Origin: Melioribacter roseus
Lineage (GTDB): Bacteria; Bacteroidota; Ignavibacteria; Ignavibacteriales; Melioribacteraceae
Assembly: GCA_020724265.1 (NCBI GenBank)
Contig: DYHH01000003.1
Span: 118,682 to 182,681, forward strand
Reading direction: 5' to 3'
DNA: 64,000 nt
The position numbers and the translations under genes were made by a program. Below, piece after piece: positions 2,239 through 41,033 of this stretch (its first letter is position 1; each line of letters begins with the position of its first letter). The notes below the pieces were generated by a model. That model made no database searches. It was not told the DNA's origin and saw only the letters and a list, made by a program, of their open reading frames with translations.

Positions 2239-4914
2239 ATGAAAAACTTAAAACTATTTCTATTATTTATTATGGTATACTCAATGCAATTATTTGCTCA
2301 ACTTCCACCGCTCATTGATCGTGAGATATTTTTCGGAGATCCTGAAATTTCCGGAGCACAAATTTCACCCGATGGAAAATTTATTACCTTTGTCAAACCT
2401 TATAATAACATTAGAAATATCTGGGTTAAAGAGTTTGATGAACCGTTTGATAATGCTCGTCCATTAACCGCAGATTCATCCAGACCAATAAGAGCTTATT
2501 TCTGGTCTGTTGATAGTAAATATGTACTTTATGTACAAGACAAAGGGGGCGATGAAAATTTTAGAGTTTATGCAGTAAACCCCGCCGAAAGCGGTGACCC
2601 GGTTCCAAATGCAAGAGACTTGACACCTTACGATGATGTTAGAGCAACAATCTATTCAGTACCTAAGAAAACACCGGATCAAATTATAATTGGATTAAAT
2701 GATAGAGACCCGCAGGTACATGATGTTTACAGGCTTAATTTAACCGACGGTACAAGAGAATTATTATGGCAAAATGATCAGAATGTTGTCAGTTGGTCAA
2801 TTGATCTTGAAGGTAACTTACGGTTAGGAATTAGAATGCTTCCCGATGGAGGAAGTGAAATTTTAAAAATTGAGGACAGTGATTTAGTCTCTATTTATTC
2901 GGTAAATAATGAAGAAACAGCTTCTCCAATACGTTTTACACCAGACGGTAATAGTTTTTATATGATCACAAATAAAGGTGATGATTTAGATAAAACTCAA
3001 TTAGTACTTTACAATCTTGTCGACAATTCTATTGAGTTTATCGAGAAAGATCCGCTTGATGAAGTAGATTTTGGCGGAGCATTCTTTTCAGATATAACAA
3101 ACGAATTGATATTCACTGCATATGTTGGTGATAAACGAAGGCTTTATTTTAAAAACGATGAATTTGAAAAAGATTATGAAAAATTAAAAACACTTCTTCC
3201 CGACGGTGAAATTTCGCTCCGTTCGATGACAGATGATGAAAATATCTGGTTAGTTTCGGTTTCGAGAGATGTTGATCCCGGTTCGGTGTATGTTTTCAAT
3301 CGAAAAGAAGGGAAAGCTGAATTTTTATATCAGTCCAATCCTAAACTTCCTGTTGAACATCTGGCTCCAATGAAACCAATAAGATATGAGGCAAGAGATG
3401 GATTGGTGATTCCTGCTTATCTGACATTACCGAAAGGAATTCCATCAGAAAATTTACCGACAATACTTCTAATTCATGGGGGTCCTTGGGCTCGAGATTA
3501 CTGGGGTTATGATCCTATTGCTCAATTCTTAGCGAATAGAGGATATGCAGTATTGCAGCCAAATTTCAGAGGATCAACCGGTTATGGTAAAGCATTCTTA
3601 AATGCCGGAAATAAAGAGTGGGGAAGAGGTGCAATGCAGCATGATATTACCGATGCAGTTAAATGGTTGATCGAAGAAGGAATTGCCGATCCCGAAAGAG
3701 TCGGTATTGCCGGAGGTTCTTACGGCGGTTATGCTACTTTAGCCGGCTTGGCATTTACGCCGGAATTATATGCAGCCGGTTTCGATATAGTTGGTCCGTC
3801 AAATATTATTACACTTTTAAATTCAATTCCCCCATACTGGGCCCCTATTAAAAAGATGTTTGATGTAAGGGTAGGAGATATGAATGATCCTGAAGAACTG
3901 AAAATGTTAGAAGAACAATCTCCTTTAAATTATGCTGAAAATATTATAAGACCATTATTTGTTGTTCAGGGTGCAAATGACCCAAGAGTTAAAAAAGCCG
4001 AATCTGATCAAATTGTGGTTGCTTTACGTGACCTCGGTAGAGAAATTGAATATATGGTGGCGGAAGACGAAGGACATGGTTTTGCAGGGTTGGAAAATAG
4101 ACTTGCTATGACGGTAGCAATGGAAGAATTTTTTGCTAAACATCTTAAAGGCAGGTATCAAGAAGATGTTCGTGATGAAATAAAAGAGAGATTAGATCAG
4201 ATTATGGTAGATATTAATACGGTAGTATTACCTGTTAAAGAAGAAGTATCAGCAGAAAAAGTGTTTGAATTTGACGGAAGCAAAATTCAAGAACAAGAAT
4301 CAAAATATTTGATGACTATCGAAGCTCGCGGTCAAACTATGAATATGGATGTCTTCAGAAAAATAGCCAAAGCAGAATTGAATGATACTGAAGTTCTAAT
4401 GGTAATAGATGAAGTTACAGGAATGATGGGCGGACTTGATACACTTTACCTTAATAGTAAATCTCTTCAGCCGATTAAAAGATTGGCAAAGCAAGGAATG
4501 GCAAAGGTAAATGTTCAATTTGGTAACAAGAAAATTGAAGGATTAATTTCAGCCGGTCCGCAGCAAATGCCGATTGATGTCTCAATCGATTCACCGGTAC
4601 TTTCAGAGGGAACAAATACCGAACTTGCAATTTGTACTCTTCCTTTAAATGAAAATTATGCAGCTGTCTTAGATTTATTCGATATGATGGGAGGAAAAGT
4701 AAAATCATTATCTGTCAAAGTAGTGGGTACCGAAACGGTTGAAATAAACGGTAATTTTTACGATACCTATAAAGTCGAACTTGATCCGGTTGACGATGAA
4801 AATGGCGGTTCAATATTATGGATAAGCAAAGAGTTAAATAAAGTAATCAAATCTGAATCAAAATTACCACAAATGATGGGCGGCGGGACTGTAATAACTG
4901 AATTAGTTGAGTGA
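2239..4914 (+). CDS. Secreted S9-family prolyl oligopeptidase with C-terminal extension
   Basis: An 891-residue serine peptidase. A signal peptide (residues 1-20, ending LFAQ) precedes a WD40/beta-propeller-like region with repeated SPDGKFI/TPDGNSF motifs (about 35-390) and an alpha/beta-hydrolase domain (about 395-645). The catalytic triad reads as Ser494 in GGSYGG, Asp581 in GANDPRV and His613 in EGHGF. Family members usually end near residue 640-650. Here about 240 further residues follow, beta-rich and resembling DUF3108-type barrel proteins. The start is supported by AGAGGGG 9-10 nt upstream. Likely degrades peptides in the periplasm or outside the cell. The function of the extension is unknown. 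Confidence 0.88.
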   Translation: MKNLKLFLLFIMVYSMQLFAQLPPLIDREIFFGDPEISGAQISPDGKFITFVKPYNNIRNIWVKEFDEPFDNARPLTADSSRPIRAYFWSVDSKYVLYVQDKGGDENFRVYAVNPAESGDPVPNARDLTPYDDVRATIYSVPKKTPDQIIIGLNDRDPQVHDVYRLNLTDGTRELLWQNDQNVVSWSIDLEGNLRLGIRMLPDGGSEILKIEDSDLVSIYSVNNEETASPIRFTPDGNSFYMITNKGDDLDKTQLVLYNLVDNSIEFIEKDPLDEVDFGGAFFSDITNELIFTAYVGDKRRLYFKNDEFEKDYEKLKTLLPDGEISLRSMTDDENIWLVSVSRDVDPGSVYVFNRKEGKAEFLYQSNPKLPVEHLAPMKPIRYEARDGLVIPAYLTLPKGIPSENLPTILLIHGGPWARDYWGYDPIAQFLANRGYAVLQPNFRGSTGYGKAFLNAGNKEWGRGAMQHDITDAVKWLIEEGIADPERVGIAGGSYGGYATLAGLAFTPELYAAGFDIVGPSNIITLLNSIPPYWAPIKKMFDVRVGDMNDPEELKMLEEQSPLNYAENIIRPLFVVQGANDPRVKKAESDQIVVALRDLGREIEYMVAEDEGHGFAGLENRLAMTVAMEEFFAKHLKGRYQEDVRDEIKERLDQIMVDINTVVLPVKEEVSAEKVFEFDGSKIQEQESKYLMTIEARGQTMNMDVFRKIAKAELNDTEVLMVIDEVTGMMGGLDTLYLNSKSLQPIKRLAKQGMAKVNVQFGNKKIEGLISAGPQQMPIDVSIDSPVLSEGTNTELAICTLPLNENYAAVLDLFDMMGGKVKSLSVKVVGTETVEINGNFYDTYKVELDPVDDENGGSILWISKELNKVIKSESKLPQMMGGGTVITELVE

Positions 4915-4923
4915 TAATTTAAA

Positions 4924-4952
4924 GTGGAGCTGCCTAACAATGGCAGCTCCAC
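4924..4952. terminator. Convergent hairpin terminator
   Basis: A perfect 11-bp stem (GTGGAGCTGCC / GGCAGCTCCAC) with a 7-nt loop sits between the convergent ends of the S9 peptidase gene (4914) and the dehydrogenase gene (4964). The flanks are A/T-rich rather than pure T-runs, so it probably serves both strands with moderate strength. Confidence 0.6.
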
Positions 4953-4963
4953 AAATAAATAAT

Positions 4964-6211
4964 CTAAACCCATCCTCTTAATTTACATGCTTCTGCCACA
5001 CGTGCTACACCTACAACCATTGCAGCTAATCTTGGATGAATTTTCTTTTCTCTAAGGGCTTCCTGAACTGTATGATATGCTTTGGAAATTTTTTTATCTA
5101 ATCTTTGCTGAACCTGTTCTTCATCCCAAAAATACGAGTATTTATCTTGAACCATTTCAAAATAAGATACGGTTACTCCGCCGGCGCTTGCAAGTATATC
5201 AGGAATTACATGAACCCCTTTTTTATTTAATATAATATCAGCTTCGGGAGTAGTAGGACCATTAGCAAGCTCACTAATTATTTTTGCTTTAATGTTATCC
5301 GCATTTTGTGAAGTAATTGCATTTTCAAGTGCTGCCGGGTATAATATTTCTACATCAAGGGTAAGTAATTCATTATGTTGAATTTCTTTGGCACCCGGAA
5401 AATTTTTAACTGTTCCGGTTTTTAATTTATGCATAACAAGTTCTTTTGGGTCAAAGCCGTCGGGATTAAATATTGCTGCTCGTGAATCACTAACGGCTAT
5501 TAACTTTCCTCCGCCGAGTATTTCCTGATGAAGTAATGCAGCTCTTTGACCAGCGTTTCCAAATCCTTGAATTGCATAAGTTTTTGTAGGATCAAATCCG
5601 TAAACTTTACATGCTTCTCTAACATTAATTACACCACCTCGTGCAGTTGCGTCTCTTCTTCCTTCGGTACCTCCAACTTGCTGAGGCTTATCTGTTAAAA
5701 TACCCGGCTGATGATTGTTAACAATAGTTTCATATTCATCCATCATCCATGTCATAGTTTGCGGATTAGTATAAACATCCGGAGCCGGGATATCTCTTTC
5801 AATACCGATAATTGGGGCTATTGCCCTTATATAACCTCGGGAAACTGCTTCAAGTTCACGTTCGGACATTGTTTTGGGGTCGCAGCAAACGCCTCCTTTG
5901 CCGCCTCCGAGCGGAAGGTCTACAACAGCTGTTTTCCAGGTCATCCAGCAAGCTAAAGCGCGTATAGTATCAACTGTTTCTTCCGGATGAAATCTGATAC
6001 CTCCTTTAGCAGGACCACGTGCATAATTATATTGTATTCGCCAAGCATGGAAAACTTTTACTTTGCCATCATCCATCCTTACTGGGAAAGTAAACTTAAA
6101 TTCTCTTTGAGGATAAATAAGAAGCTCAATAGTCGCTTGATCTAAATTCAATAATTTTGCCGATTCCATTACTTGTTGCTGTGCGACTTTAAATGAATTA
6201 TAAGATTCCAT
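4964..6211 (-). CDS. Glu/Leu/Phe/Val dehydrogenase (RocG/GudB-like)
   Basis: A 415-residue amino-acid dehydrogenase that reversibly deaminates glutamate (or a related amino acid) to 2-oxoglutarate. The catalytic lysine motif PLGGGKGGVCCDPK, the catalytic Asp in ERDIPAPDVYTN and the Rossmann loop GFGNAGQ are all present. The frame opens at 6235, but the ATG at 6211 has AGGA 8 nt upstream and follows the stop of the zinc-ribbon gene, so 6211 is preferred. It is the last gene of a tight three-gene unit with the zinc ribbon and the receiver/ATP-grasp protein. It belongs to the ~420-residue subfamily, unlike the two ~450-residue GdhA proteins upstream. Cofactor choice is not clear from sequence. 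Confidence 0.9.
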   Translation of the reverse strand: MESYNSFKVAQQQVMESAKLLNLDQATIELLIYPQREFKFTFPVRMDDGKVKVFHAWRIQYNYARGPAKGGIRFHPEETVDTIRALACWMTWKTAVVDLPLGGGKGGVCCDPKTMSERELEAVSRGYIRAIAPIIGIERDIPAPDVYTNPQTMTWMMDEYETIVNNHQPGILTDKPQQVGGTEGRRDATARGGVINVREACKVYGFDPTKTYAIQGFGNAGQRAALLHQEILGGGKLIAVSDSRAAIFNPDGFDPKELVMHKLKTGTVKNFPGAKEIQHNELLTLDVEILYPAALENAITSQNADNIKAKIISELANGPTTPEADIILNKKGVHVIPDILASAGGVTVSYFEMVQDKYSYFWDEEQVQQRLDKKISKAYHTVQEALREKKIHPRLAAMVVGVARVAEACKLRGWV

Positions 6212-6215
6212 CCTT

Positions 6216-6422
6216 TTATTCCTGTTTTTTATCATTTGCAGAAGAATTTTTTGAGGTAGATTTTTTTACAACATCATCAAGAATAATTCTATACCAGCAA
6301 TTTTTACACATTAAAGCTCTATCTACACTAAGAAGAACTTGTTGCCACGGACTTAGTTTTTGCCCGCAGTGAGGGCAGCTGTCTAGTTCAACTTTTTTAA
6401 ATTCTTTTTTTTCTTCGGTCAA
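6216..6422 (-). CDS. Small zinc-ribbon protein
   Basis: A 68-residue basic/acidic mixed protein with two CxxC knuckles, CPHC near residue 16 and CKNC near residue 39, as in a zinc ribbon. No enzymatic domain is visible. It starts 1 nt after the receiver/ATP-grasp gene ends and stops 4 nt before the dehydrogenase start, so the three are probably co-transcribed. It could bind nucleic acid or act as a partner of one of its neighbours. I do not recognise a named family. Confidence 0.7.
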   Translation of the reverse strand: MTEEKKEFKKVELDSCPHCGQKLSPWQQVLLSVDRALMCKNCWYRIILDDVVKKSTSKNSSANDKKQE

Positions 6423-6423
6423 T

Positions 6424-9405
6424 TTAAACCTCCGGTTTAAGAATTATTCCTTTGTTTTCGTGACCGTTCATTTTCACTTTTATGGGTTTATCAAATCGAA
6501 TATGTTTAGTGAAGTTTTTTTCTTCAATTGGTTTCTGAGATAATATCCAATCCCAATCAATAATGTCTGATTTGTTTGTATCAACAGTAAAATAACCTAT
6601 CATAAAGGAGGTTATGTTCTGGAAGAAATGAGTACCTTGTGAAGGGGTTACGGAGAAATCTTTGAATCCCGTTTCAATTATTGCTCTTGCGCCTGCAATT
6701 TGTTCCCATGTAACCGGAATACCAAGCCACGGGTCTAAGGAACCCCATCTTCCAACCCCAATTAGTAAATATGGTTTTTGCTCGTTTAACATTTTCGAAT
6801 TAAAATAGCTTACTTCTTTTGCAACTTCTATGCTTTTTGCTCTTTCGAAAGTATTGTAATCAACATAAACAATATCTTTCATATCATCAATCAAACCATT
6901 TCCCAGAACTTGTTCGCTGTAACAAATAATATTTTCCTTCTGAGTATCCTCAATATCAAGTTCTTCAACTTCATGGTGAACTACAAGAGGTCTCATTTGA
7001 AGAATACCGAATTCTTTTGGTTTGCTTGTCATATTAACTGCAAACTCAATTTCAACCGGAGTACCCATACCCCAGGTTCCCATATCAAGTAGTAATTCTA
7101 AAATTTGCGGGAGCGGGAAAAGCTTATTTCTTAAAATCGGACCAAAAGTAACAAGTCTCATACCTTCTCTGCTCAGACCATCGTAAATTCTATCATTTTC
7201 AGGTGAATAAGTTGAGGCAACAAATTGTAGAGAATTGTCTTCCTCTGCGGCTTTTAAATCATGTTTTCTTAGAAGCATGTCGTAAGTTTCGTATCCGAAT
7301 TCTGAACTGCCGTCTAAGGCTAAAGCATAAAAATCACGCTGAGAAGTATTTAATGATTCTTTAACTGAATAAAATTGAATCAGATCGGTGGGATATTTAG
7401 GACAGAATCTTACCGTATTACCGCCGTCAACAACCATTTTCCCAAGACCAAGCGCAACTGAGATAATACCATCATTTGATTTCTGCGGTGATATTGGATA
7501 AAAATTATACGATTTGGCTACACCGGATATATCAGGATAAAATCTATTACCGTGAGTAGTTCCGACAGTTCTTTGAATAATAACCGCCATTTTTTCTTCT
7601 TCAAGTCTGTAGGAAGTTATTCTAATATAATTTTTTGCACTTTGATAATAAGTTGAAGCATATACTCGTTTTATGCTGTTAAGCAAATCGTTTAATCTTA
7701 TTAATGAATTGGAGTGAATGTTTGGGATCATGTAAGTCTGATAAACGCCGGCAAAGGGATGATATTGTGAATCTTCGAGGAGACTTGATGATCTTACCGC
7801 AAGGGGTGTCCTAACAATATCAAGAAAAGCTGCAAGTTCACCAAGAATTTCTTCGGGAAATTTTTCGGCTTCAAGAAATCTTTTTGTTATTTCCTTATCG
7901 TCATCACAGTTAAGTGCAAATTTTTTGAGATTGTTTTCTTCAAGAAATTGATCAAATACATCTGTACCAAGAACCACTGCCGAAGGAACGGAAATCTGTA
8001 CGTCTTCAAAACTCTCACGAACATTATAATTATTAATTAAAGTATTGACAAAACTTAATCCACGTGCTTTCCCACCGAGCGATCCTCCGCCAATTCTTGC
8101 AAAACTGCTGCCCGGGTCAAAAGTTTCTTTCGAGAAATCGGTAATTATACCACGTTGACGGAAACTAATATAATTAAGTACGGACTTAATTAAATACGAT
8201 CTAAGTTCTTCGATAGAATTGTAATCCGTAACTTTCCGTGGTCTAAGCTGATGAGCTAAGTAGAATTCGGTACGCGCTTTCAACCAATTAGAGAAATGAT
8301 TGCGTTCGGCATGATATTTAATACTTTCTACAGGTACAACTTTCATTTGTTCAACTAAGCTCTTTAAATCATAAGCCCGTCCAACTTCTATTCCGTTTGG
8401 CATTCGAAAAATAAAATCACCGAAGCTGAAATAATTTATCATAAATTGACGAAGTTCGTTCAGCAATGTAGGGGAGTCTTTCAAAATAAATGAAGTATTA
8501 TATTCTTCTGCTATTTTTTCATTTTCAGAATTATGGGATAATAGAAGAATCGGGATATCAATTTGCTGAGACTTAACCGTTGAAGCAAATTTAATACCGG
8601 CTTGGGAATCCTGAACTCCGTTCATCGGGAAATCGATATCCGAAATTACACCTAAAGTGAAATCCTTATATCGTGAATAATAATCCCATGCCTCCTCATA
8701 AGTTGAACAAAGTAAAATTTTCGGACGTGCTCGCATTCTTAAAAATTTATGACTCAGATTTATTCCTTCAGAAATAAGTCTCTGTGATTGCTTCATTGTT
8801 TCCGTATAAATAATAGGAAGGAAAGAAGAATAATATCTAACACTATCTTCAATAACTATAATGTTTTGAACACCAACAATTTTCGTATCATGTGCTACAT
8901 TAGCCCTGTCTTCAAAGTATTTTATTATTGCAATAATAATTCGAAAGTCGCCTTGCCAAACAAAGATTTTATCAAAAACATTTGTGTTTTTATTAAGCAA
9001 TAGATGCATTAGTTCTTTGTTATCATGAGCCAATAATACAATCGGAATGTCGAGATCGGATTCTTTAACAAGTTTAGCTAATTGAGTAGCATGCATATCT
9101 TCGATATGTAAAGTAGTAATTATAAGATCGAAACGTTTTTCTTCTTTTGCAATAGCAATTGCATCATGACCGCTTGATACGCGGGTTAGTTCGGGGGAAT
9201 GACTTAACTGCAATCCTTGATATTCGTTTCGAATTAATTCATACAATCTTCCGTCTTCTTCGTATAGATAAAGATCATAGAGACTAGAAACTAAAAGAAT
9301 ATCCCGGATTCGGAATCGCATAAGATTTTGAAAACCTTGAAAACGATTACCGTATCCATGTTCAATCCATATCGAATCTAAAACTTCAAAGGATGCATCT
9401 TTCAT
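6424..9405 (-). CDS. Double receiver / PEP-synthase-type ATP-grasp fusion protein (paralog 1)
   Basis: A 993-residue soluble multidomain protein. Residues ~33-167 form a receiver-like fold in which the phospho-acceptor position is Thr (LIITTLHIEDM). Residues ~181-325 form a second receiver that keeps the acidic pair (E186, D187), the acceptor D256 (ISDIDFP) and K309, with an insertion after its first helix. Residues ~430-808 match the pyruvate phosphate dikinase/PEP synthase N-terminal ATP-grasp domain (GGGSLGGKARGL, AVRSSSLLEDSQYHPFAGVYQTY, LQMRPL). No swivelling His domain (TSHAA-type) or PEP-binding barrel follows. Instead there is a ~180-residue C-terminal domain with VGRWGS and PSQGTHFFQN. 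It therefore should not be a complete PEP synthase. A paralog lies at 13198-16188. Confidence 0.8.
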   Translation of the reverse strand: MKDASFEVLDSIWIEHGYGNRFQGFQNLMRFRIRDILLVSSLYDLYLYEEDGRLYELIRNEYQGLQLSHSPELTRVSSGHDAIAIAKEEKRFDLIITTLHIEDMHATQLAKLVKESDLDIPIVLLAHDNKELMHLLLNKNTNVFDKIFVWQGDFRIIIAIIKYFEDRANVAHDTKIVGVQNIIVIEDSVRYYSSFLPIIYTETMKQSQRLISEGINLSHKFLRMRARPKILLCSTYEEAWDYYSRYKDFTLGVISDIDFPMNGVQDSQAGIKFASTVKSQQIDIPILLLSHNSENEKIAEEYNTSFILKDSPTLLNELRQFMINYFSFGDFIFRMPNGIEVGRAYDLKSLVEQMKVVPVESIKYHAERNHFSNWLKARTEFYLAHQLRPRKVTDYNSIEELRSYLIKSVLNYISFRQRGIITDFSKETFDPGSSFARIGGGSLGGKARGLSFVNTLINNYNVRESFEDVQISVPSAVVLGTDVFDQFLEENNLKKFALNCDDDKEITKRFLEAEKFPEEILGELAAFLDIVRTPLAVRSSSLLEDSQYHPFAGVYQTYMIPNIHSNSLIRLNDLLNSIKRVYASTYYQSAKNYIRITSYRLEEEKMAVIIQRTVGTTHGNRFYPDISGVAKSYNFYPISPQKSNDGIISVALGLGKMVVDGGNTVRFCPKYPTDLIQFYSVKESLNTSQRDFYALALDGSSEFGYETYDMLLRKHDLKAAEEDNSLQFVASTYSPENDRIYDGLSREGMRLVTFGPILRNKLFPLPQILELLLDMGTWGMGTPVEIEFAVNMTSKPKEFGILQMRPLVVHHEVEELDIEDTQKENIICYSEQVLGNGLIDDMKDIVYVDYNTFERAKSIEVAKEVSYFNSKMLNEQKPYLLIGVGRWGSLDPWLGIPVTWEQIAGARAIIETGFKDFSVTPSQGTHFFQNITSFMIGYFTVDTNKSDIIDWDWILSQKPIEEKNFTKHIRFDKPIKVKMNGHENKGIILKPEV

Positions 9406-9482
9406 TGTATTCTATTGTATGTTATTGCAAATAAATATATGAAAAAAGATATATGCGTTAAAGAATATTAATTTAAAATTAG

Positions 9483-9532
9483 CGGCAGATTTGTATCTAC
9501 AAACATATAAATAACTTCATACAAATCTGCCG
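9483..9532 (-). terminator. Long hairpin downstream of gdhA paralog 1
   Basis: A perfect 14-bp inverted repeat (CGGCAGATTTGTAT at 9483-9496, ATACAAATCTGCCG at 9519-9532) has a 22-nt loop. It lies between the end of gdhA (9561) and the start of the receiver/ATP-grasp gene (9405). Neither side has a clear T-run (the minus-strand tail is CTAATTTTAA), so it may be a weak terminator, an RNA-stability element or a processing site that uncouples the two genes. Confidence 0.5.
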
Positions 9533-9560
9533 TACTGTTATTTACATCAAAATATTTCAG

Positions 9561-10967
<1,407 letters not shown>

Positions 10968-11024
10968 TCAAAAACAAATTAGAGATAGATTTTCTTAGGA
11001 GGTAGAACAAAAGTTATGAATTGA

Positions 11025-11045
11025 CTGTAACAAATTTTGTTACAG
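11025..11045. promoter_or_regulatory. Perfect 21-bp palindrome, candidate operator of gdhA
   Basis: The half-site CTGTAACAAA (11025-11034) and its exact complement TTTGTTACAG (11036-11045) flank a single central base. It lies in the 180-bp gap between the response-regulator gene end (11103) and the gdhA start (10922), 103 bp upstream of gdhA. The symmetry suits a dimeric repressor or activator. The regulator is unknown; the spacing does not fit NtcA, and the 19-bp core is longer than the TnrA box. Confidence 0.55.
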
Positions 11046-11102
11046 ATAAACGGTTATTGAGTGAAGGAATTAATGTAATGATTAATAATTGAGAAGGTTC
11101 TT

Positions 11103-11735
11103 TTAGATAATCAATTTATTACGAAGTACATATTGAGTTAATTCGACATTCGATTTAATATGCATTTTTTCGAATATTCTGTTGCGGTAACTATAGAACG
11201 TATTTATACTAATATTCAATTCCGAAGAAATTATTTCTGCAGTTTTGCCGGAAGCTATTTTTAACATAACGCTGTATTCTCTATCGGATAATATTTCATG
11301 CGGAGAATCAATCTTTGCAGTATCAAAATACTCTGCAAGTTTATCTGCAAGAGAATCGCTGATATATTTTCTTCCGTCCACAATTTTCCTGATCGCTGAA
11401 ATTAATTCGGTAGGGGCACTAACTTTTTGAAGATAACCTGAAGCACCTGATTTAATAGCACGAATTCCATATTGTTCTTCGCTGTACATACTTAAAATTA
11501 ATACCGGCAGATTCGGATATTGTAATTTAATTTCTTTCATTATCTCAATGCCGGATTTATCCGGCATATTTATATCAAGAACAACTATGTTACATTCCTT
11601 TACTTTAATTAATTCGAATAACTGATTTGAATTCTCAGCTTCACCGGTTACACAAATATCGGATACTTCCGCAACTATTTGTTTTAACCCTTCTCTAACG
11701 ATAGCATGATCATCTGCTATTATAATCTTTATCAT
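11103..11735 (-). CDS. NarL/FixJ-type response regulator
   Basis: A 210-residue two-domain regulator. The N-terminal receiver carries the acidic pair D8/D9, the phospho-acceptor D54 (VVLDINMPDKSG) and K104. The C-terminal LuxR-type helix-turn-helix spans about 148-205 (LSDREYSVMLKIASGKTAEIISSELNIS in outline). It begins 4 nt after the histidine-kinase stop and is surely its partner. As the last gene before gdhA, it is well placed to control gdhA or the adjacent receiver/ATP-grasp genes. Its binding site cannot be assigned. Confidence 0.92.
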   Translation of the reverse strand: MIKIIIADDHAIVREGLKQIVAEVSDICVTGEAENSNQLFELIKVKECNIVVLDINMPDKSGIEIMKEIKLQYPNLPVLILSMYSEEQYGIRAIKSGASGYLQKVSAPTELISAIRKIVDGRKYISDSLADKLAEYFDTAKIDSPHEILSDREYSVMLKIASGKTAEIISSELNISINTFYSYRNRIFEKMHIKSNVELTQYVLRNKLII

Positions 11736-11739
11736 ATAT

Positions 11740-13176
11740 TTATTTGTCTAATGGTAAAATTAAACTAACAAGAGTTCCGCTGCCCATCGTACTTTTTATA
11801 TTAAACTTTCCACCTAAAATTTCCGTACGCTCTCTCATTCCTAAGATTCCCAATGATTTGGGGTTTTGTATTTGATTCTTAGTAATTCCTTTACCGTTAT
11901 CTTTTATTTGCAAATGTAAAAAATTATCGTCGCAAATAAGCTTTATCGAAACTTTACTTGCATTTGCATGTCTTGCAATATTTGTTAAAGCTTCTTGAAA
12001 TATTCTAAATACTGCTGTTTTTTTATCAGCATCAAGATTAATTTCTTCTCCCGGTAAATCTGTATTGCAATCAATTCCGGTTCTTTTTGAAAATTCATTT
12101 GTCTGCCATTCAATAGCAGCAATAATTCCCAGGTCATCTAAAATTCCCGGTCTTAATTTTTCACAAATTTTTTGTACTGATTCTACTGATTTGTCGATCA
12201 TTTCAATAATGGAATCAAATTTTTGCTTTAACTCGACTTGAGACGGTGTAAGTTTATTTGCCAGTAAAGATACTTGAATTTTCAACACGGTTAAAACTTG
12301 TCCTAATTCATCATGGATTTCACGAGAAATAATCGTTCTTTCTTCTTCTCTTATAGATTGAATATGAAGTGCTAGGTTTCTGAGTTTATCTCCATATTTC
12401 ATCAACATCGATTCGTATTTATTTCTTTCAGTTAAGTCACGTGCAATAAAAATTACTGCAGGTCTATTTTGATATTCAAATAGGTGAGAGTTAATTTCAA
12501 CAGATAATTCTAATTTATTCTTTGACATTATCGATGAAGTAAAAACATAACTCCCGTTTTCAAGTAATTTTTCGAGCACATCAACTAAGAATTCTTCTTC
12601 ATTTCTAAAAAGAATTTCAAGTGGATGTCGCATTAAAATTTCTTTGCGGTTGAAATTAAGTTTATTAAATGTCTCAACGTTAGCATCAAGGAAATTACTT
12701 AATGTCTTCCCGTAATTAACATTACAGATTAATACTATATCATTTATATTATTGAATAAAGTTTGAAAGTGATATACTTTATTCTGCATATCTAGTAACA
12801 ACTTTTTTTGACGGGTTATATCTTCGATGAAAAGAAATAAAATTGTTTGACCATTTAAGAGAGCCGCATTTTGATTGCATTTAATCCAAATCGTTTTCTT
12901 GCTTGACGTAACGATTTCTTTTTCATAAGATTCAAAGTTTTCATTCGAAGAAAAAGATTTCTGAAGATATGGTCTAATGTCGTTTTGTGAGTTGAAAGAA
13001 AAAAGCGAATAGAAATTTATATTTATTATTTGATCAGCCGCCTTATCAAATAGCTTAGCAAAATATTCATTTGCAAATTGTATTATACCTTCACGGTTAA
13101 TAACGACAAAACCATGAGGTAAATTATCCAATAATACATCGGTAATACCGTGATGTGTTTTGTTACCGGTGAACAT
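11740..13176 (-). CDS. Soluble PAS-domain sensor histidine kinase (HisKA_3 type)
   Basis: A 478-residue kinase without a transmembrane segment. Two PAS-like domains (about 12-125 and 135-250) precede the dimerisation/phospho-acceptor helix with His288 in SREIHDELGQ. A HATPase domain follows, with the N-box FQEALTNIARHA (N399), DNGKGI (from D426) and GILGMRER. This layout is the NarX/DegS-like class that pairs with NarL-type regulators. It starts 21 nt after the receiver/ATP-grasp paralog 2 ends and runs into the response regulator, so the three form one transcription unit. The cytosolic PAS domains imply an internal signal such as redox state or a metabolite (inference). Confidence 0.92.
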   Translation of the reverse strand: MFTGNKTHHGITDVLLDNLPHGFVVINREGIIQFANEYFAKLFDKAADQIININFYSLFSFNSQNDIRPYLQKSFSSNENFESYEKEIVTSSKKTIWIKCNQNAALLNGQTILFLFIEDITRQKKLLLDMQNKVYHFQTLFNNINDIVLICNVNYGKTLSNFLDANVETFNKLNFNRKEILMRHPLEILFRNEEEFLVDVLEKLLENGSYVFTSSIMSKNKLELSVEINSHLFEYQNRPAVIFIARDLTERNKYESMLMKYGDKLRNLALHIQSIREEERTIISREIHDELGQVLTVLKIQVSLLANKLTPSQVELKQKFDSIIEMIDKSVESVQKICEKLRPGILDDLGIIAAIEWQTNEFSKRTGIDCNTDLPGEEINLDADKKTAVFRIFQEALTNIARHANASKVSIKLICDDNFLHLQIKDNGKGITKNQIQNPKSLGILGMRERTEILGGKFNIKSTMGSGTLVSLILPLDK

Positions 13177-13197
13177 TTTTATATAATTTTTTTCAAT

Positions 13198-16188
13198 TTA
13201 TTTACCGGGTTTTAGAATAATCCCTTGGTTTTGATGTCCATTAATTTTAACGGAAATCGGTTCTTCAAATTGCAGATGCCTGGTATACTTAAATTCTTCC
13301 ATTGCAGGTTGACTGCAAAGCCAATCCCAATCAATAAAACCTTTCTTATCATGTGAATTAACAGTAAAATAACCGACTCTAAAACTTGTAATATTTTGGA
13401 AAAAATGCGAGCCCTGTGATGGAGTAACTTCAAAATCCTTAAATCCGGATTCAATGATAGCTCCGGCTCCGGATATTTGATCCCATGTTACAGGAATACC
13501 GAGCCAATGATCAAACGAACCCCATCTGCCAACCCCGATTAATACATAAGGTTTCTGTTGTTCAATTAACTTCTTGTTTAATTGACTGATTTCATATGCA
13601 ACTTCTTTACTTTTCCCTCTATCAAATTTATTTATATCAACTACTATAATATCATGAATACCATAAAGTGAACCATTTCCAAGAACCTGAGTACTTCTGC
13701 AAATAAGATTTCCCTTCGGGAATTCGTCCAAATTCAAACTCTCGACTTCTCTACTAATAACAAGCGGACGCATCTGCAGAAAAGAAAATTCTTTGGGTGT
13801 TTTATTCATGTTTACGGCGAATTCAATTTCTACAAACGTTCCCATTCCCCAGGTTCCTAATTCAAGCAATAGATCAAGAACTTCTGCTAAAGGGAAGACC
13901 TTGTGTTTTAATATCGGTGCAAATGTTACTACTCTTGTTCCGTTTCTAGATATCCCATCGTAGACTGCATCATTTTCCGACGAGTATGTTGAACCAACAT
14001 AAGATAGTGTTTGATCTTTTTCAGCGGCAGTGAGTTCGTAGTTTTTAACAAAAATTTCAGGATCTTGTTCAGAACTTGTGATCTTTGTTGATACATCTAA
14101 TGCATAAAAATTTTGTTGAGCATTCCGCAGTGTTTCTTTTGTTGAGAAAAATTGCAATAGATGTTTCGGAAACTTTGGACAGAAACGAACGGTTTCACCT
14201 CCTTCAACAACTGTTTGTCCCAACCCAAGTGCAACATATGCAATTCCATCGGGTGATTTTTGAGGCGGCACAGGATAAAAATTATAAGATTTGGCCACAC
14301 CGGCAAAATCAGGGTAGAATCTATTCCCATGTTTTGTCCCGATCAATCTTTGCACGATAACCGCCATCTTTTCTTCTTCCAGCCTGTAGGATGTTGCCTT
14401 CATATAATCTTTTGCTGCTGTTAAAAATTGAGAAGCATAAACACTTTTAATTGCGGTTAATAATTCTTGCAGTCTAACTCCAATATCGTCATCATTATTA
14501 GGTATCATGTAAGTTTTGTACACACCGGCAAATGGTTGAAACTGAGAGTCTTCTAAAAGACTTGATGAACGCACGGCAAGGGGTTCTCTTATTATATCAA
14601 GAAAATCCTTTAGTTTCAGAACTATATCTTCGGGAAAGAAAGAAGCTTCCCGGAAAGTCTTTGCAATCAGTTTATCATCGGTTTCATTTAGGGCAAAATT
14701 GAACAGCTTATTTTCATCGATAAATTGGTCGAATACATCTGTTGCAATAACTACTGCAGATGGGACTGAAATTTCAATCCCTTTGAATTTATCGTGAAGT
14801 TCATAATTATTGATTAATGTATTAATAAAACCAAGACCTCTTGCTTTACCGCCGAGTGAACCACCGCCAATCCTAGCAAAACTATTTTGAGGGTCAAATG
14901 AATCTTTATTAAAATCGGTAACAATTCCGCGTGTCCGTAATTGCTGATATAGCACCAAAGAATCAATGAGGTCTTTTCTGAGATCTGCCGGAGTATCAAA
15001 ATCACTTAACTTGCGAGGTCTTAATCTATCGGCCAACCAAAATTCGGTTCTTGCTTTTAACCAGCGTGAAAAATCATTTCTTGCTGCATGAAAAATTATC
15101 GATTCATCGGGGACAATTCTTAATTTTTCTTCAAGTTGTTTTAGGTTTGATGCACGATCAACTTCGCTGCCGTCGGGCAATCTAAAAATGAAATCGCCGA
15201 ATCCAAAATTCTCAAGCATAAAATTTCGTAAATCATGCAGAAGTCTTGGAGAGCCCTTTAATAGAAAACCGACACCAATTTCAGTTGCCCTAACTTGGTA
15301 TTCCGGGTTGCTTGACTGTAAGACAATTGGAATATCATGATGAAGCTTTCGTACTTCAATTGCAAATTTAATACCTGCTTCGGGATCACGCACACCATTA
15401 TGTTTAAAATTAATGTCAGTAATTACTCCCAAAATGTATTCATGAAATTGTTCGAAATAACTCCATGCTTCTTCATAAGTTGTACAAAGAAGGATTTTAG
15501 GGCGGGCACGCATTCTAAGGTATTTATGTGTAAGATTTACTCCTTCTGAAAGCAATTGTTGTGACTGTTTAAGTATTACTTTATAAATTAAGGGGAGATA
15601 GGTAGAATAAAATTTTACATTATCTTCAACAAGAATTATTGATTGCACGCCTGCATTTAAAGTATCATTCTCTACGTTTAATTTATCTTCTATGTATTTA
15701 ATAATTCCAATTAATAATCGGTAATCTCCTTGCCAAATAAATATTTTATCGAATATGGAAGTATCGTAATGAGTTTGAATTTCTTTTCTTTCTCTGTTAT
15801 CATAAGCCAATAATACTACAGGCGTTAGAATATTTTTTTCTTTTATTGTTCGTGTAAATTCAATAACATGCATATCCTCGATGTGAAGAGTTGTAATGAT
15901 AAGATCATAAGTGTTTTGTCCGTTGCCTAATATTTCAAGAGCTTCTGCAGCGGTTGTAACTGCTGTTAATTCAGGCGCATGACTAAGATTTAGATTTTGA
16001 TATTCTTCTCTAATCAGTTCATAAAGTCGTCCGTCTTCTTCAAAAAGATAGTTATCATATAAGCTCGAAACTAAAAGAATATCTCGAATTTTATGCCGCA
16101 TTAACTTTTGAAATCTTTTTATTCTTTGTCCGAACATATTCTTCATATTAAGCTGTTCGATCTTATTCATTTTCATAAGAGTATTCAT
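13198..16188 (-). CDS. Double receiver / PEP-synthase-type ATP-grasp fusion protein (paralog 2)
   Basis: A 996-residue paralog of the 6424-9405 product, alignable end to end. The first receiver-like domain (about 35-170) again has Thr at the acceptor site (LIITTLHIEDM). The second (about 183-327) keeps E188/D189, D258 (VITDINF) and K311. The ATP-grasp domain has GGGSLGGKARGL and AVRSSSLLEDSQFQPFAGVYKTY and ends at LQMRPL. The C-terminal domain keeps VGRWGS and PSQGSHFFQN. The catalytic-histidine swivel domain of PEP synthases is missing. It heads a unit with the histidine kinase and response regulator, so phosphotransfer to its second receiver is plausible (inference). The exact start among several early Met codons is uncertain. 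Confidence 0.8.
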   Translation of the reverse strand: MNTLMKMNKIEQLNMKNMFGQRIKRFQKLMRHKIRDILLVSSLYDNYLFEEDGRLYELIREEYQNLNLSHAPELTAVTTAAEALEILGNGQNTYDLIITTLHIEDMHVIEFTRTIKEKNILTPVVLLAYDNRERKEIQTHYDTSIFDKIFIWQGDYRLLIGIIKYIEDKLNVENDTLNAGVQSIILVEDNVKFYSTYLPLIYKVILKQSQQLLSEGVNLTHKYLRMRARPKILLCTTYEEAWSYFEQFHEYILGVITDINFKHNGVRDPEAGIKFAIEVRKLHHDIPIVLQSSNPEYQVRATEIGVGFLLKGSPRLLHDLRNFMLENFGFGDFIFRLPDGSEVDRASNLKQLEEKLRIVPDESIIFHAARNDFSRWLKARTEFWLADRLRPRKLSDFDTPADLRKDLIDSLVLYQQLRTRGIVTDFNKDSFDPQNSFARIGGGSLGGKARGLGFINTLINNYELHDKFKGIEISVPSAVVIATDVFDQFIDENKLFNFALNETDDKLIAKTFREASFFPEDIVLKLKDFLDIIREPLAVRSSSLLEDSQFQPFAGVYKTYMIPNNDDDIGVRLQELLTAIKSVYASQFLTAAKDYMKATSYRLEEEKMAVIVQRLIGTKHGNRFYPDFAGVAKSYNFYPVPPQKSPDGIAYVALGLGQTVVEGGETVRFCPKFPKHLLQFFSTKETLRNAQQNFYALDVSTKITSSEQDPEIFVKNYELTAAEKDQTLSYVGSTYSSENDAVYDGISRNGTRVVTFAPILKHKVFPLAEVLDLLLELGTWGMGTFVEIEFAVNMNKTPKEFSFLQMRPLVISREVESLNLDEFPKGNLICRSTQVLGNGSLYGIHDIIVVDINKFDRGKSKEVAYEISQLNKKLIEQQKPYVLIGVGRWGSFDHWLGIPVTWDQISGAGAIIESGFKDFEVTPSQGSHFFQNITSFRVGYFTVNSHDKKGFIDWDWLCSQPAMEEFKYTRHLQFEEPISVKINGHQNQGIILKPGK

Positions 16189-16219
16189 TTTGATTAATAA
16201 TTGGTTAGCTAAAATATAA

Positions 16220-16266
16220 TAAAAAAGGCAATCGATTCATCATGTGAAAATGACAACCGATTGCCT
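16220..16266 (-). terminator. Terminator of gdhA paralog 2
   Basis: Read on the minus strand, AGGCAATCG (from 16266) pairs with CGATTGCCT (ending 16226) as a 9-bp stem followed by a T-run. It separates gdhA paralog 2 from the receiver/ATP-grasp gene, which therefore probably has its own promoter or depends on read-through. Confidence 0.75.
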
Positions 16267-16289
16267 AAAAAAAATAAATGTTGATATTA

Positions 16290-17963
<1,674 letters not shown>

Positions 17964-18026
17964 ATGAATTTAACATTACATCACGCTCATCACCATTTAA
18001 TCTTTCTCATGGAAGCGTCGATGTGA
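17964..18026 (+). CDS. hisL: his operon leader peptide
   Basis: A 20-codon open reading frame, too short for most gene finders, running from ATG at 17964 to TGA at 18024-18026. The peptide begins MNLTLHHAHHHLIF: five of six consecutive codons (residues 6-11) are histidine, the hallmark of a His-tRNA-sensing leader. It lies between a promoter and a strong terminator directly in front of hisG. Ribosome stalling at the His run when His-tRNA is scarce should relieve termination. I could not pair an obvious antiterminator by eye. Confidence 0.88.
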   Translation: MNLTLHHAHHHLIFLMEASM

Positions 18027-18054
18027 TTTAAATAATTTTATAAAAATTAATAAG

Positions 18055-18080
18055 AACCCCGGCGCATGCCGGGGTTTTTT
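18055..18080 (+). terminator. his attenuator terminator
   Basis: The GC-rich stem AACCCCGGC / GCCGGGGTT with loop GCAT is followed by TTTTTT. It starts 28 nt after the leader-peptide stop and ends 18 nt before hisG. The arrangement is that of a transcription attenuator, not an operon end. Confidence 0.88.
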
Positions 18081-18098
18081 GTTTTAAAGGAGAATATA

Positions 18099-18959
18099 AT
18101 GAACGGTAATCTAAAATTAGCAATCCAGAAAAAGGGGAGGTTGTCTGATAAATCTCTCGAACTCCTAAAATCATGCGGCTTCGATATTGAAAATTATTCT
18201 GAGCGATTATTTATATCGGCTAATAATTTCAAATTAGATGTTCTTTTTCTGCGGGATGATGATATTCCCGAATATGTTCAAGACGGTGTAGCCGATATCG
18301 GCATTGTTGGTGAGAATGTATTAATTGAAAGAGGTTCCAAAGCGGAAATAATAAAAAAACTTAGTTTCGGGAAATGTAAACTTATGATTGGTGTTCCTGA
18401 AGAAGAAGATATCTCGGATATCAAAGCACTTAACAACAAAAAAATTGCAACGTCCCACCCACGCTTACTTAATAATTATTTAAAGAACAATTCAATCAAC
18501 TCAAAAGTAATTGAGATAAGCGGTTCGGTCGAGATAGCACCTTCACTCGGAGTAGCAGATTATATATGCGATATTGTATCAACCGGCAACACACTTAAGT
18601 TCAATAAACTCAAAAAATCATTTACCGTTTTTGAATCAGAAGCTGTTTTAATAAAAAGTAGAACATTCAACCCAGCTAAGCAAGATTTATTGGACCAATT
18701 TAAAGCAAGAATTGATTCCGTTTTACTTGCAAAGAATTCAAAGTATCTAATGATGAATGTTGAGCGAAAAGCATTGGAGGAGATACAAAGAATTATTCCT
18801 TCATTAAAAAGTCCTACGGTTGTACCACTGGCTGAAGAAAATTTAGTAGCGGTTCACGCTGTAATTCCTAAAGAAAAATTTTGGTTGATTGTAGGGGAAT
18901 TAAAATCAATCGGTGCCACCGGAATAATTTTATTACCAATAGAGAATATGATATTATGA
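18099..18959 (+). CDS. hisG: ATP phosphoribosyltransferase (long form)
   Basis: A 286-residue first enzyme of histidine synthesis, condensing ATP with PRPP. The length and the ~75-residue C-terminal extension (from about NSKYLMMNVERKALEEIQ) mark the long, self-regulating HisG with a histidine-binding domain, rather than the short HisG/HisZ form. The frame opens at 18066 inside the attenuator hairpin, but ATG 18099, preceded by AAAGGAGA, is the real start. Its TGA overlaps the hisD ATG by 4 nt. Both attenuation and feedback inhibition are therefore expected. Confidence 0.94.
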   Translation: MNGNLKLAIQKKGRLSDKSLELLKSCGFDIENYSERLFISANNFKLDVLFLRDDDIPEYVQDGVADIGIVGENVLIERGSKAEIIKKLSFGKCKLMIGVPEEEDISDIKALNNKKIATSHPRLLNNYLKNNSINSKVIEISGSVEIAPSLGVADYICDIVSTGNTLKFNKLKKSFTVFESEAVLIKSRTFNPAKQDLLDQFKARIDSVLLAKNSKYLMMNVERKALEEIQRIIPSLKSPTVVPLAEENLVAVHAVIPKEKFWLIVGELKSIGATGIILLPIENMIL

Positions 18960-20230
18960 AAAAAGTAAATCTAAAATATATTTCAAAAGATGATTATCAA
19001 TTACTGCTCAAAAGACCGGCGATTGATAATGATAAAGTATTTGAAATTGTAAAACCCATTTTGACAGAAATCAAAAAGGATGGAATGAATTCAGTTATTA
19101 AATTCGCCAAAGAATTTGACGGATTAAATGATTCCGAATTGCGAGTAAATCAAAAAGACATTGATGAATCAGAAAAAACTATTGATTCTGATTTGAAGCA
19201 AGCGATTAAATCAGCGATTGAAAACATTACAAAATTTCATTATGAACAGTCGCCAAAGGAATATGAAATTGAGACAATGACCGGTGTTAAATGCGGGAGA
19301 GTTTACAGAGCTATTGAAAATGTTGGGCTTTATATTCCCGGCGGAACTGCTTCGTTATTTTCAACTTTATTAATGCTTGCGATTCCGGCAAAGATTACCG
19401 GCTGTAAACGAATTGTTGTTTGTTCTCCAAAACCATCAAATGAAATTCTTTATTGTGCAAAACTTCTTGGGCTTGATGAAGTCTATAATCTAGGCGGTGC
19501 ACAAGCAATTGGTTTAATGGCTTACGGAACAGAGGAAATAAAAAAAGTTGATAAAGTTTTTGGACCTGGCAACCAATTTGTTACCGCTGCGAAAACTTTT
19601 GTAAGCATTGACCCCGACGGATGTGCAATAGATATGCCTGCCGGACCGAGTGAAGTGCTAATCATTAGCGATGAAACCGCAAATCCAAAATATGCCGCCG
19701 CTGATTTACTCTCGCAAGCTGAACATGGATCCGATTCTCAGGTTATATTTATATCAACAAATCAAAAATTGATAGACTGGGTTGAAGATGAAGTGGCATC
19801 ACAATTAATTAATCTCCCTCGTAAGGAAATTGCTGAGAAAGCTTTAGCCGATGGATTACTCATTAAATGTGATTCTCTTGAAGAGGCAATTGAATTCAGC
19901 AATGAATATGCGCCTGAGCATTTGATTCTGCAAACTATAGATGCTGATTCGATTCTAAAACAAATTCAAAATGCCGGTTCAGTTTTTCTCGGAAATTATA
20001 CACCGGAAAGTGTGGGAGATTACTCTTCCGGTACAAATCACTCTCTTCCCACTTATGGTTATGCAAAAACTTTCAGTGGTGTAAATTTACTTTCTTTCAT
20101 GAAAGGAATTACTTATCAGTCGCTATCGAAAGAAGGAATTATAAACATTGGTAAAACTGTTATAGATATGGCAAATGCAGAAGGTTTAAAGGCTCATGCA
20201 AATGCAGTGGAGGTAAGATTAAATGATTGA
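18956..20230 (+). CDS. hisD: Histidinol dehydrogenase
   Basis: A 424-residue zinc enzyme for the last two steps of histidine synthesis, oxidising histidinol to histidine with NAD. Family motifs include GLYIPGGTASLFSTLLMLAIP, the signature region around GPGNQFVTAAK and DMPAGPSEVL, and the catalytic stretch SVGDYSSGTNHSLPTYG. The start is the ATG overlapping the hisG stop (ATGA), which removes 25 residues from the longest frame. It overlaps hisC by 8 nt. Confidence 0.95.
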   Translation: MKKVNLKYISKDDYQLLLKRPAIDNDKVFEIVKPILTEIKKDGMNSVIKFAKEFDGLNDSELRVNQKDIDESEKTIDSDLKQAIKSAIENITKFHYEQSPKEYEIETMTGVKCGRVYRAIENVGLYIPGGTASLFSTLLMLAIPAKITGCKRIVVCSPKPSNEILYCAKLLGLDEVYNLGGAQAIGLMAYGTEEIKKVDKVFGPGNQFVTAAKTFVSIDPDGCAIDMPAGPSEVLIISDETANPKYAAADLLSQAEHGSDSQVIFISTNQKLIDWVEDEVASQLINLPRKEIAEKALADGLLIKCDSLEEAIEFSNEYAPEHLILQTIDADSILKQIQNAGSVFLGNYTPESVGDYSSGTNHSLPTYGYAKTFSGVNLLSFMKGITYQSLSKEGIINIGKTVIDMANAEGLKAHANAVEVRLND

Positions 20231-21272
20231 CTTAGAAAAACTTGTTAGACCAAATATTCTAAAACTGAAGCCATATACATCTGCGAGAAGTCAGCATCTC
20301 AACGGATTACTTTTAGATGCCAATGAAAATGCATTTGGTTCAGTTATTGAAGATGATAATCTAGAATTGAATAGATATCCCGATCCAACTCAAATAAAAC
20401 TTAGGCAAAGTATCGGAGATTATTTAAATATCAATCAGGATAGTATTTTCTGTGGTGTCGGTTCTGATGAAATAATTGAGTTATTAATAAGAATATTTTG
20501 TGAACCGGGTAAAGATAAAGCAGCAATCTTCGAACCGACATATGGTATGTATAAAGTAGTTTGCGATATTCAAGGAGTGGATACAAAATCATTTGAATTA
20601 GACAACAACTTTCAAATTAATGTGGATCAATTTCTAATTCAGGAATTGGAATCAATAAAAATAATTTTTATCTGTTCGCCAAATAATCCGACGGCTAACT
20701 TTATAAATAAAAAGGATATCATTCATTTATCCGAAAAAATTAACGGCATTGTTGTTATTGACCAAGCGTATATTGATTTTTTTGATGAACGTGAACTATT
20801 GGATGAAATTAATAATCATTCTAATATAGTTTTACTTCGAACCTTTTCTAAAGCATGGGGTTTAGCAGGAGCTCGATTTGGTTTTGCCGTTGCGGATTCA
20901 TTTATTGTGAAGTTATTGATGAATATAAAATCACCATATAACATCAATAAATTAACTGAAAATATTGTACTTAGATCTTTGAAAAAGATTGATCGAAAAA
21001 ATGATATTTTAGTAAAAATAAAAATCGAAAGAGATTATCTTACGGAAGAATTGAGATCAATAAATGGTATTAAAAACGTCTATACTTCTGATGCAAATTT
21101 TATTTTATTTAAAGTTGATAATGCTGATAAGATTCATGAAAAATTAATCAACAAAGGAATAATAATTAGAAATAGATCGAATCAATTGAACTTGGAAGGT
21201 TGCTTGAGAGTTACTGTTGGGACACATGAACAAAATCAAAAGTTCATTAAAGAATTGAGAGCAGTATTATGA
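20223..21272 (+). CDS. hisC: Histidinol-phosphate aminotransferase
   Basis: A 349-residue class I/II PLP aminotransferase converting imidazole-acetol phosphate to histidinol phosphate. It shows DANENAFG near the N-terminus, CSPNNPTAN, the Asp/Tyr pair in VVIDQAYIDF, and the PLP lysine K210 in TFSKAWGLAGARFG. The ATG lies inside the hisD stop region and the end overlaps hisB by 4 nt, indicating translational coupling through the operon. Confidence 0.95.
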   Translation: MIDLEKLVRPNILKLKPYTSARSQHLNGLLLDANENAFGSVIEDDNLELNRYPDPTQIKLRQSIGDYLNINQDSIFCGVGSDEIIELLIRIFCEPGKDKAAIFEPTYGMYKVVCDIQGVDTKSFELDNNFQINVDQFLIQELESIKIIFICSPNNPTANFINKKDIIHLSEKINGIVVIDQAYIDFFDERELLDEINNHSNIVLLRTFSKAWGLAGARFGFAVADSFIVKLLMNIKSPYNINKLTENIVLRSLKKIDRKNDILVKIKIERDYLTEELRSINGIKNVYTSDANFILFKVDNADKIHEKLINKGIIIRNRSNQLNLEGCLRVTVGTHEQNQKFIKELRAVL

Positions 21273-22171
21273 CAAGAGTCATTGTAAATAAAAGTCTATT
21301 AAATCTACATTCCGATCTTTCTATAGGAATGATAAGTTCTTTGAAAAAATTAGTTAATCGTGGAGTGGCAGTTTCGCTTTATCCAACACCAACATTCTCA
21401 GACCCGATTATTCACAGGTTACTGGAATTGGAAGGAATTAACTTTGAATCTGACTCTACTAATGATTATCAATCAAATTATTTTATAACGGATAAGAAAA
21501 ACAAAAAAGTAAAAGCTAAACAAATACTTGTCGGTAAGAATAGAAAAAGTAAAAATATTTCAGAAGCTATTGAATTCGTTATATCTCAAGCTAGAACAGC
21601 TCAGCAAATTCGTAATACAAATGAAACAAAAGTAAATGTAAAACTAAATCTTGACAGTTCAGGTAAGTTTAAGATAAATACCCGCATCGGATTTTTTGAT
21701 CATATGTTACAACAGTTAAGCAAACATTCAAATATTGATATGATGATTAATGTTAAAGGCGATTTGCAAGTAGATTATCATCATACAGTTGAGGATACAG
21801 GGATTACTTTAGGTGAATGTTTAGTAAAAGCATTAGGAGACAAGAAGGGAATAAAAAGATTTGGTTTTATGCTTCCTATGGATGATTCAATTGCAGAGAC
21901 AGCTCTGGATTTAAGCGGTAGACCTTACTTAAATTTCAAAACTAAGTTTACCAGAGAACAGGTCGGTGAATTTCCAACAGAACTTGTGGAGGAATTTTTC
22001 AGAGGTTTAACAATAGGATTAAAAGCAAATATCTACATTAAAGCTTCCGGAAAGAATGATCATCACAAAATTGAAGCAATATTCAAATCATTTGCCAAAT
22101 CGCTTAATGAAGCCGTTCGGTTTGATGAGAGAAGCGAAAATAAATTACCTACTACAAAGGGAAGACTATGA
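21269..22171 (+). CDS. hisB: Imidazoleglycerol-phosphate dehydratase with degenerate N-terminal domain
   Basis: A 300-residue protein. Residues ~112-300 are a full IGP dehydratase with metal-binding motifs FDHML (H145), DYHHTVEDTG and DHHKIEA. The first ~110 residues align by pattern with the HAD histidinol-phosphatase half of bifunctional E. coli-type HisB, including the linker RNTNETKVNVKLNLD. However, this part is shorter than the usual ~165 residues and lacks the DxDGT nucleophile motif. The dehydratase should work; phosphatase activity is unlikely. No other histidinol-phosphatase candidate is seen in this operon. Confidence 0.9.
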   Translation: MTRVIVNKSLLNLHSDLSIGMISSLKKLVNRGVAVSLYPTPTFSDPIIHRLLELEGINFESDSTNDYQSNYFITDKKNKKVKAKQILVGKNRKSKNISEAIEFVISQARTAQQIRNTNETKVNVKLNLDSSGKFKINTRIGFFDHMLQQLSKHSNIDMMINVKGDLQVDYHHTVEDTGITLGECLVKALGDKKGIKRFGFMLPMDDSIAETALDLSGRPYLNFKTKFTREQVGEFPTELVEEFFRGLTIGLKANIYIKASGKNDHHKIEAIFKSFAKSLNEAVRFDERSENKLPTTKGRL

Positions 22172-40993: not shown

Positions 40994-41033
40994 CTCATTA
41001 ATTAAAAATTAGCTGTTTCAAAAAAGATTATTG

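Follow-up and report, generated by a model that had tools for sequence, protein, structure and literature searches.

What does a PEP-synthase-like protein do when it carries two receivers in front of its ATP-grasp domain, has no PEP/pyruvate barrel behind it, and is encoded between genes for glutamate dehydrogenase (GDH)? The question is posed by a stretch of 64,000 nucleotides from Melioribacter roseus (contig DYHH01000003.1, positions 118,682 to 182,681), which we call the window and within which all positions below are counted. A single uninterrupted ORF of 993 aa spans exactly positions 6424-9405 on the minus strand, and its product, PPS1, is by its parts a variant of the PPDK_N/phosphohistidine kind, with the following features.

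6424..9405, minus strand: PPS1, a receiver-receiver-PPDK_N-C-domain protein of 993 aa (ORF, Pfam, 89-row alignment, AF2 model)
8875..9303, minus strand: receiver 1, a pseudo-receiver, residues ~35-177 (Pfam Response_reg at 70-132; Thr98 replaces the phospho-acceptor Asp)
8410..8874, minus strand: receiver 2, residues ~178-332, with the complete site E186, D187, D256, S290, K309 (column counts; structural match over 178-332, best Z 14.6)
8164..8379, minus strand: DUF5752-like stretch, residues 343-414 (Pfam score 19.8 bits, short of the cut-off of 23)
6976..8133, minus strand: PPDK_N ATP-grasp domain, residues ~425-810 (Pfam 1.5e-38; six residues 89/89; Foldseek 5hv3, E 1.1e-12)
6427..6963, minus strand: C-terminal swivel-like domain, residues 815-993 (folded alone by AF2, pLDDT 89.2, pTM 0.88; PPDK/RPH swivels among the best rows, Z ~7)
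6628..6630, minus strand: codon of His926, a candidate phospho-histidine (88/88 rows with a residue; 27/27 over three subfamilies)

An earlier, sequence-only reading of this gene had called the ATP-grasp half complete, and this description stands: the motifs that it quoted are present, the Pfam match to PPDK_N covers residues 442-824 (1.5e-38), and K446, R538, E785, E787, Q803, and R805, which we take to be catalytic-type positions by comparison with PPDK/RPH motifs, are identical in 89/89 aligned rows. The same reading held that PPS1 is not a PEP synthase, and we agree, because no PEP/pyruvate barrel follows the ATP-grasp domain. A Pfam scan of the protein matched neither that barrel nor PF00391, the chain ending with the C-domain, and the family models for PEP synthase (TIGR01418, 51.3 bits against a cut-off of 739.75) and rifampin phosphotransferase (NF041857, 31.3 bits against 999) score far under their cut-offs. 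Pfam likewise recognised no substrate or acceptor domain after the ATP-grasp domain and no DNA-binding family in PPS1, and no nucleotidyltransferase in either PPS1 or its paralogue PPS2. The further claim that PPS1 phosphorylates, or signals to, something other than pyruvate is probably right. The missing barrel is also what might be expected of a PEP synthase that has decayed and lost all function, and we rejected this explanation as very improbable, given the conservation across 89 rows, the presence of PPS1 matches in 55/58 genomes (its own included), and a separate 927-aa ORF with both PPDK_N and PF00391 in the same genome.

In the AlphaFold model of the full chain (mean pLDDT 82.4, pTM 0.59), residues 419..992 of PPS1 align with residues 10..467 of PEP synthase 2ols (Z 26.1, rmsd 4.6, 362 aligned), and the domain order is therefore the same. 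The best Foldseek match of the whole model is the rifampin phosphotransferase (RPH) 5hv3, and a PDB sequence search with the whole of PPS1 also matched rifampin phosphotransferases, over the ATP-grasp domain only. What occupies the place of the swivel is a folded domain of ~180 residues with swivel phosphohistidine domains among its structural neighbours (at Z ~7, which is suggestive only) and an invariant His926, so the earlier statement that no swivel histidine domain follows is probably wrong. By sequence, residues 815-993 match no family. PF00391 was matched by 0/86 C-domains scanned singly at E up to 10; a profile-profile comparison with 29 EI/PPDK swivel sequences (from 31 swivel loci, L165 and L169 being left out) was not significant with either the shallow or the larger profile; and a PDB search with the C-domain profile returned one irrelevant match (E 0.55). 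Folded alone by AF2 with 86 sequences, the same residues gave a confident model (pLDDT 89.2, pTM 0.88). At the top of its VIA-align list stand the RPH swivel 5fbu 756-867 (Z 7.1), the PPDK swivels 5jvj 381-511 (Z 7.3, rmsd 3.5, 120 aligned) and 1vbg (Z 7.1), and the phosphoryl-carrier domain of PPDK 2fm4 (Z 7.0), all at values under 8, which may reflect only a common arrangement. Other proteins among them score equally high, namely the pyruvate-kinase C-terminal domain 3t05 (Z 7.1) and the DRTGG protein 2ioj (Z 7.3), and EI-type swivels rank lower in the list. Many further rows (aconitase, CCT apical domains, RraA-like, PSMA, and LdcA) belong to the one swivelling beta/beta/alpha fold of SCOP, which makes the fold class of the C-domain look coherent. 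The structure prediction that had been proposed as a way of revealing a cryptic swivel has gone largely, if not conclusively, in favour of one and against the earlier reading: the confident fold, the PPDK and RPH rows, and the invariant His926 speak for one, while the tie with other proteins at Z ~7 and a Foldseek search of the C-domain alone with nothing significant (best E 0.024, a glycosylase) speak against it.

The position of the histidine bears on the same point. The loop of residues 923-926 falls under pLDDT 50 in the full PPS1 model, which counts against the assignment. In the C-domain model, His926 is residue 112 and opens a helix (111-119), eleven residues ahead of the next strand, and the His of the TSH motif in the PPDK of the same genome likewise lies eleven residues before a hydrophobic stretch, presumably a strand. 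A helix start is also where the catalytic swivel has its histidine. His926 is kept in 88/88 rows of the 89-row alignment that have a residue there, and across 27 sequences from three subfamilies it is the sole invariant His between positions 425 and 993. A larger set of C-domains was collected by means of the motif G[ST]HFF, which makes counts at positions 924-928 circular, and these were left out. Judged from the models and the invariance of the histidine, we consider it quite probable that the C-domain is a cryptic swivel with a catalytic His926, in which case a highly diverged swivel domain may escape current sequence models. A search of the genome for the absent His domain on a protein of its own, another suggestion of the sequence-only reading, found PF00391 only in the 927-aa ORF, alongside PPDK_N, and in an ORF of 597 aa, and these two are the only holders of PPDK_N or PF00391 besides PPS1 and PPS2. 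From their size and content, we take them for an ordinary PPDK and PTS enzyme I. PF00391 was present in 39/39 genomes searched, mostly in ORFs of PPDK (~930 aa) or enzyme-I (~590 aa) size, with some of other lengths.

At the other end of the protein, receiver 2 has the acid pair, phospho-acceptor Asp, Ser/Thr, and Lys of a response-regulator receiver (E186 in 89/89 rows, D187 in 88/89, D256, S/T290, and K309 each in 89/89), and receiver 1 is without the Asp, position 98 being T in 87 rows, S in 1, and a gap in 1. Transfer of phosphate to the protein's own receiver is possible, as the residues of the receiver 2 site are complete. The DUF5752-like stretch behind the receivers exceeds the 23-bit Pfam cut-off in PPS2 (25.8 bits).

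The surroundings of PPS1, with a paralogue and GDH genes that the sequence-only reading of this gene left unmentioned, give the stronger finding, a tie of the family to GDH. On the minus strand of the window the genes run in the order gdh3-PPS2-HK-RR-gdh2-PPS1-gdhArch.

16290..17630, minus strand: gdh3, a GDH of NADP type, immediately upstream of PPS2 (Pfam; exceeds the NCBIfam PRK09414 cut-off)
13198..16188, minus strand: PPS2, paralogue of PPS1, 996 aa (60% identity; Pfam)
11740..13176, minus strand: PAS histidine kinase (HisKA_3), a candidate input (Pfam)
11103..11735, minus strand: LuxR/NarL-type response regulator (Pfam)
9561..10922, minus strand: gdh2, a GDH of NADP type, immediately upstream of PPS1 (Pfam; exceeds the NCBIfam PRK09414 cut-off)
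4964..6235, minus strand: gdhArch, a GDH most similar to the archaeal type, immediately downstream of PPS1 (Pfam; best NCBIfam match GdhA_Arch, 565 bits, under the 750 cut-off)
4924..4952, minus strand: terminator-like hairpin just after gdhArch (11 pairs, 8 G-C; strongest on the strand in 4800-18200)

Three GDH genes of two types (4964-6235, 9561-10922, and 16290-17630) thus lie within 13 kb on one strand. PPS2 sits 4 kb from PPS1, and a search of the genome with the PPS1 protein returns PPS1 and PPS2 only. The hairpin is possibly the end of a gdh3-to-gdhArch transcript; counts of terminator-like hairpins (9 against 7.6 in shuffles) and of promoters (66 against 52.6) are near chance, and scans of the window with Rfam at gathering scores and for tRNAs found none.

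The association with GDH extends well beyond the window. Among 96 window-type genes counted over 76 named loci (L039-L114), with upstream defined as on the same strand and within 1 kb, a GDH gene is directly upstream in 69, and 6 are too near a contig end to tell; of the 21 without an upstream GDH, 4 have one downstream and 17 are flanked by no GDH gene within 1 kb. A GDH gene is present on at least one side in 76/96. Where an NADP-type GDH is directly upstream, 65/67 pairs fall into matching groups on both trees (33 PPS1-gdh2 and 32 PPS2-gdh3), the exceptions being L160 and L147. Matches to the histidine kinase and response regulator are both present at 9/76 loci, many of them truncated. The titles of the 76 loci are mostly those of Ignavibacteria-type or unspecific Bacteroidetes MAGs, with a few others, and in 296 genomes drawn across the phylum only a small number of full-length matches came from outside the class. 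At three loci (L060, L090, and L104), copies of PPS1 in two or three pieces, through frameshifts or assembly errors, stand beside an intact PPS2. A contig titled Oligoflexia (L106) has a window-type gene (59%) and a gdh3-like gene 82% identical to that of the window, and is possibly a misbinned Ignavibacteria contig.

The family occurs in three builds, the window type of ~995 aa, one of 585 aa that is little but the PPDK_N ATP-grasp and C-domain, and one of 1063 aa in which an N-terminus, PPDK_N, and C-domain are followed by a nucleotidyltransferase (both scanned members exceed the Pfam cut-off for NTP_transf_2). The N-terminus of the last, found at L150 (6374-9562) and at L194-L223, looks GAF-like by eye only. 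A GDH gene adjoins the family member in 16/20 regions chosen to cover outliers and the other builds, the exceptions being L148, L153, L155, and L156; those with one include the outliers L145-L147, which are 41-42% identical, with the GDH gene convergent in L145 and L146. At the 30 best-scoring loci of the 1063-aa build, with 1.5-kb flanks, the 5' side holds a GDH gene in 14 cases, once in divergent orientation, and in the other 16 the 585-aa build, which mostly abuts or overlaps the 1063-aa gene by a few bases. In a survey of 245 genomes of the class, the family is present in 116/122 that have a close NADP-GDH and in 28 that lack one, and 95 have neither, a co-occurrence that is confounded by ancestry and rests on cut-offs chosen in the analysis and on handles transferred manually. 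The partnership with GDH is well supported overall, and we hold it very probable that the PPS family is a functional partner of this enzyme.

A shared pathway would also explain the linkage to GDH. PPS1 could be a metabolic dikinase that uses His926 to phosphorylate a small metabolite close to glutamate or 2-oxoglutarate, with receivers that only regulate it, much as RPH, which has the same core and is placed by its authors in a large unexplored group with unknown substrates, phosphorylates a small molecule (PMC4844700). However, no substrate domain is recognised behind the ATP-grasp domain, the 585-aa build has room for little besides the two core domains, and both the receivers and the nucleotidyltransferase of the 1063-aa build fit regulation better; we therefore consider a dikinase of this kind rather unlikely.

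PPS1 shares with PpsA and PPDK a PPDK_N ATP-grasp domain with its conserved residues, followed in the order of 2ols by a probable swivel fold with an invariant His, but differs from them in the absence of the PEP/pyruvate barrel and PF00391 signature, in its two leading receivers, and in its GDH neighbours. The likeness to RPH lies in the whole-model Foldseek match and in a His domain that is C-terminal in RPH as well, where the swivel with His825 shuttles between the site for ATP and that for the drug (PMC4844700); PPS1, however, has receivers in front and no recognised rifampin-binding domain between its ATP-grasp and C-domain. The known cousins combine an ATP-grasp domain, a phospho-His, and an acceptor domain, either the PEP barrel or a drug-binding domain, and PPS1 is without a recognised acceptor. 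PspR of Haloferax, whose domains are given as ATP-binding, ligand- or DNA-binding, and His, is described as a PPS/RPH-like protein turned regulator, which binds a promoter and reportedly showed no phosphorylation of rifampin (PMC10948481). It is this change of role that makes it comparable to PPS1, although PspR acts on a promoter and PPS1 has receivers and GDH neighbours.

The same precedent would serve for a sensor of ATP or phosphorylation without phosphotransfer, in which the ATP-grasp domain binds ATP, the C-domain is no phospho-carrier, and GDH or transcription is controlled by binding alone, as by PspR with DNA (PMC10948481). A swivel that is invisible to sequence methods is consistent with such a sensor. 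Pure binding, however, would not demand the strict retention of His926 and of six catalytic-type positions in the ATP-grasp domain, nor does a Pfam scan that matched no DNA-binding family speak for it, and we regard this as distinctly unlikely. With no recognised acceptor domain but a conserved neighbour enzyme and the PspR precedent, we favour the reading of PPS1 as a receiver-gated ATP-to-His926 phosphotransferase that acts on, or through, GDH. The ATP-grasp domain, from its conserved residues, would bind ATP and, as fold and invariance suggest, would phosphorylate His926 on a mobile C-terminal swivel-like domain, and receiver 2 together with pseudo-receiver 1 may gate this step in response to a histidine kinase. 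Linkage makes the neighbouring GDH the most likely acceptor, or else the most likely partner to be recognised once the His is phosphorylated, and its activity might in this way follow nitrogen or energy status. For the whole chain, taken loosely, in which phosphate passes from ATP to His926 in the service of GDH control by any route, our estimate is a probability of roughly 0.5; direct phosphoryl transfer to GDH, or covalent control of it, falls somewhat short of an even chance.

Ammonium enters metabolism by a few main routes, of which GDH is one, and GlnE and GlnD are nucleotidyltransferases of the glutamine synthetase system. The PPS family resembles these in being a nucleotide-using regulator tied to an enzyme of nitrogen assimilation, with NTP_transf_2 in its 1063-aa members, but it is tied to GDH, has another core, and in the window is represented by proteins without a nucleotidyltransferase match. 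We tentatively suggest, while leaning against it in this full form, that Ignavibacteria and some other Bacteroidota have a dedicated system for post-translational control of GDH, in which the three builds (receiver-gated, bare, and nucleotidyltransferase), each usually beside its own GDH, phosphorylate or nucleotidylate the enzyme in a role comparable to that of GlnE and GlnD. If true, GDH would be under direct, post-translational control in a broad group of bacteria, via an ATP-grasp/phosphohistidine partner with receiver inputs, and the machinery of PEP synthase would have been rebuilt as a signalling device without a substrate domain. A search of openly accessible published papers, at the level of titles and abstracts, found no description of a GDH control device of this kind.

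Two further observations concern the rest of the window. A histidine-biosynthesis-like run of ORFs lies on the plus strand at 18066-24216, with hisG identified by Pfam and the others by eye, and hisG is also close to relatives at L150, L151, and L162. Farther along, positions 39200-46342 encode an HlyD/CusB-like protein with a heavy-metal-binding domain, an outer membrane efflux protein, and an AcrB-family transporter, a set that is likely to serve metal efflux.
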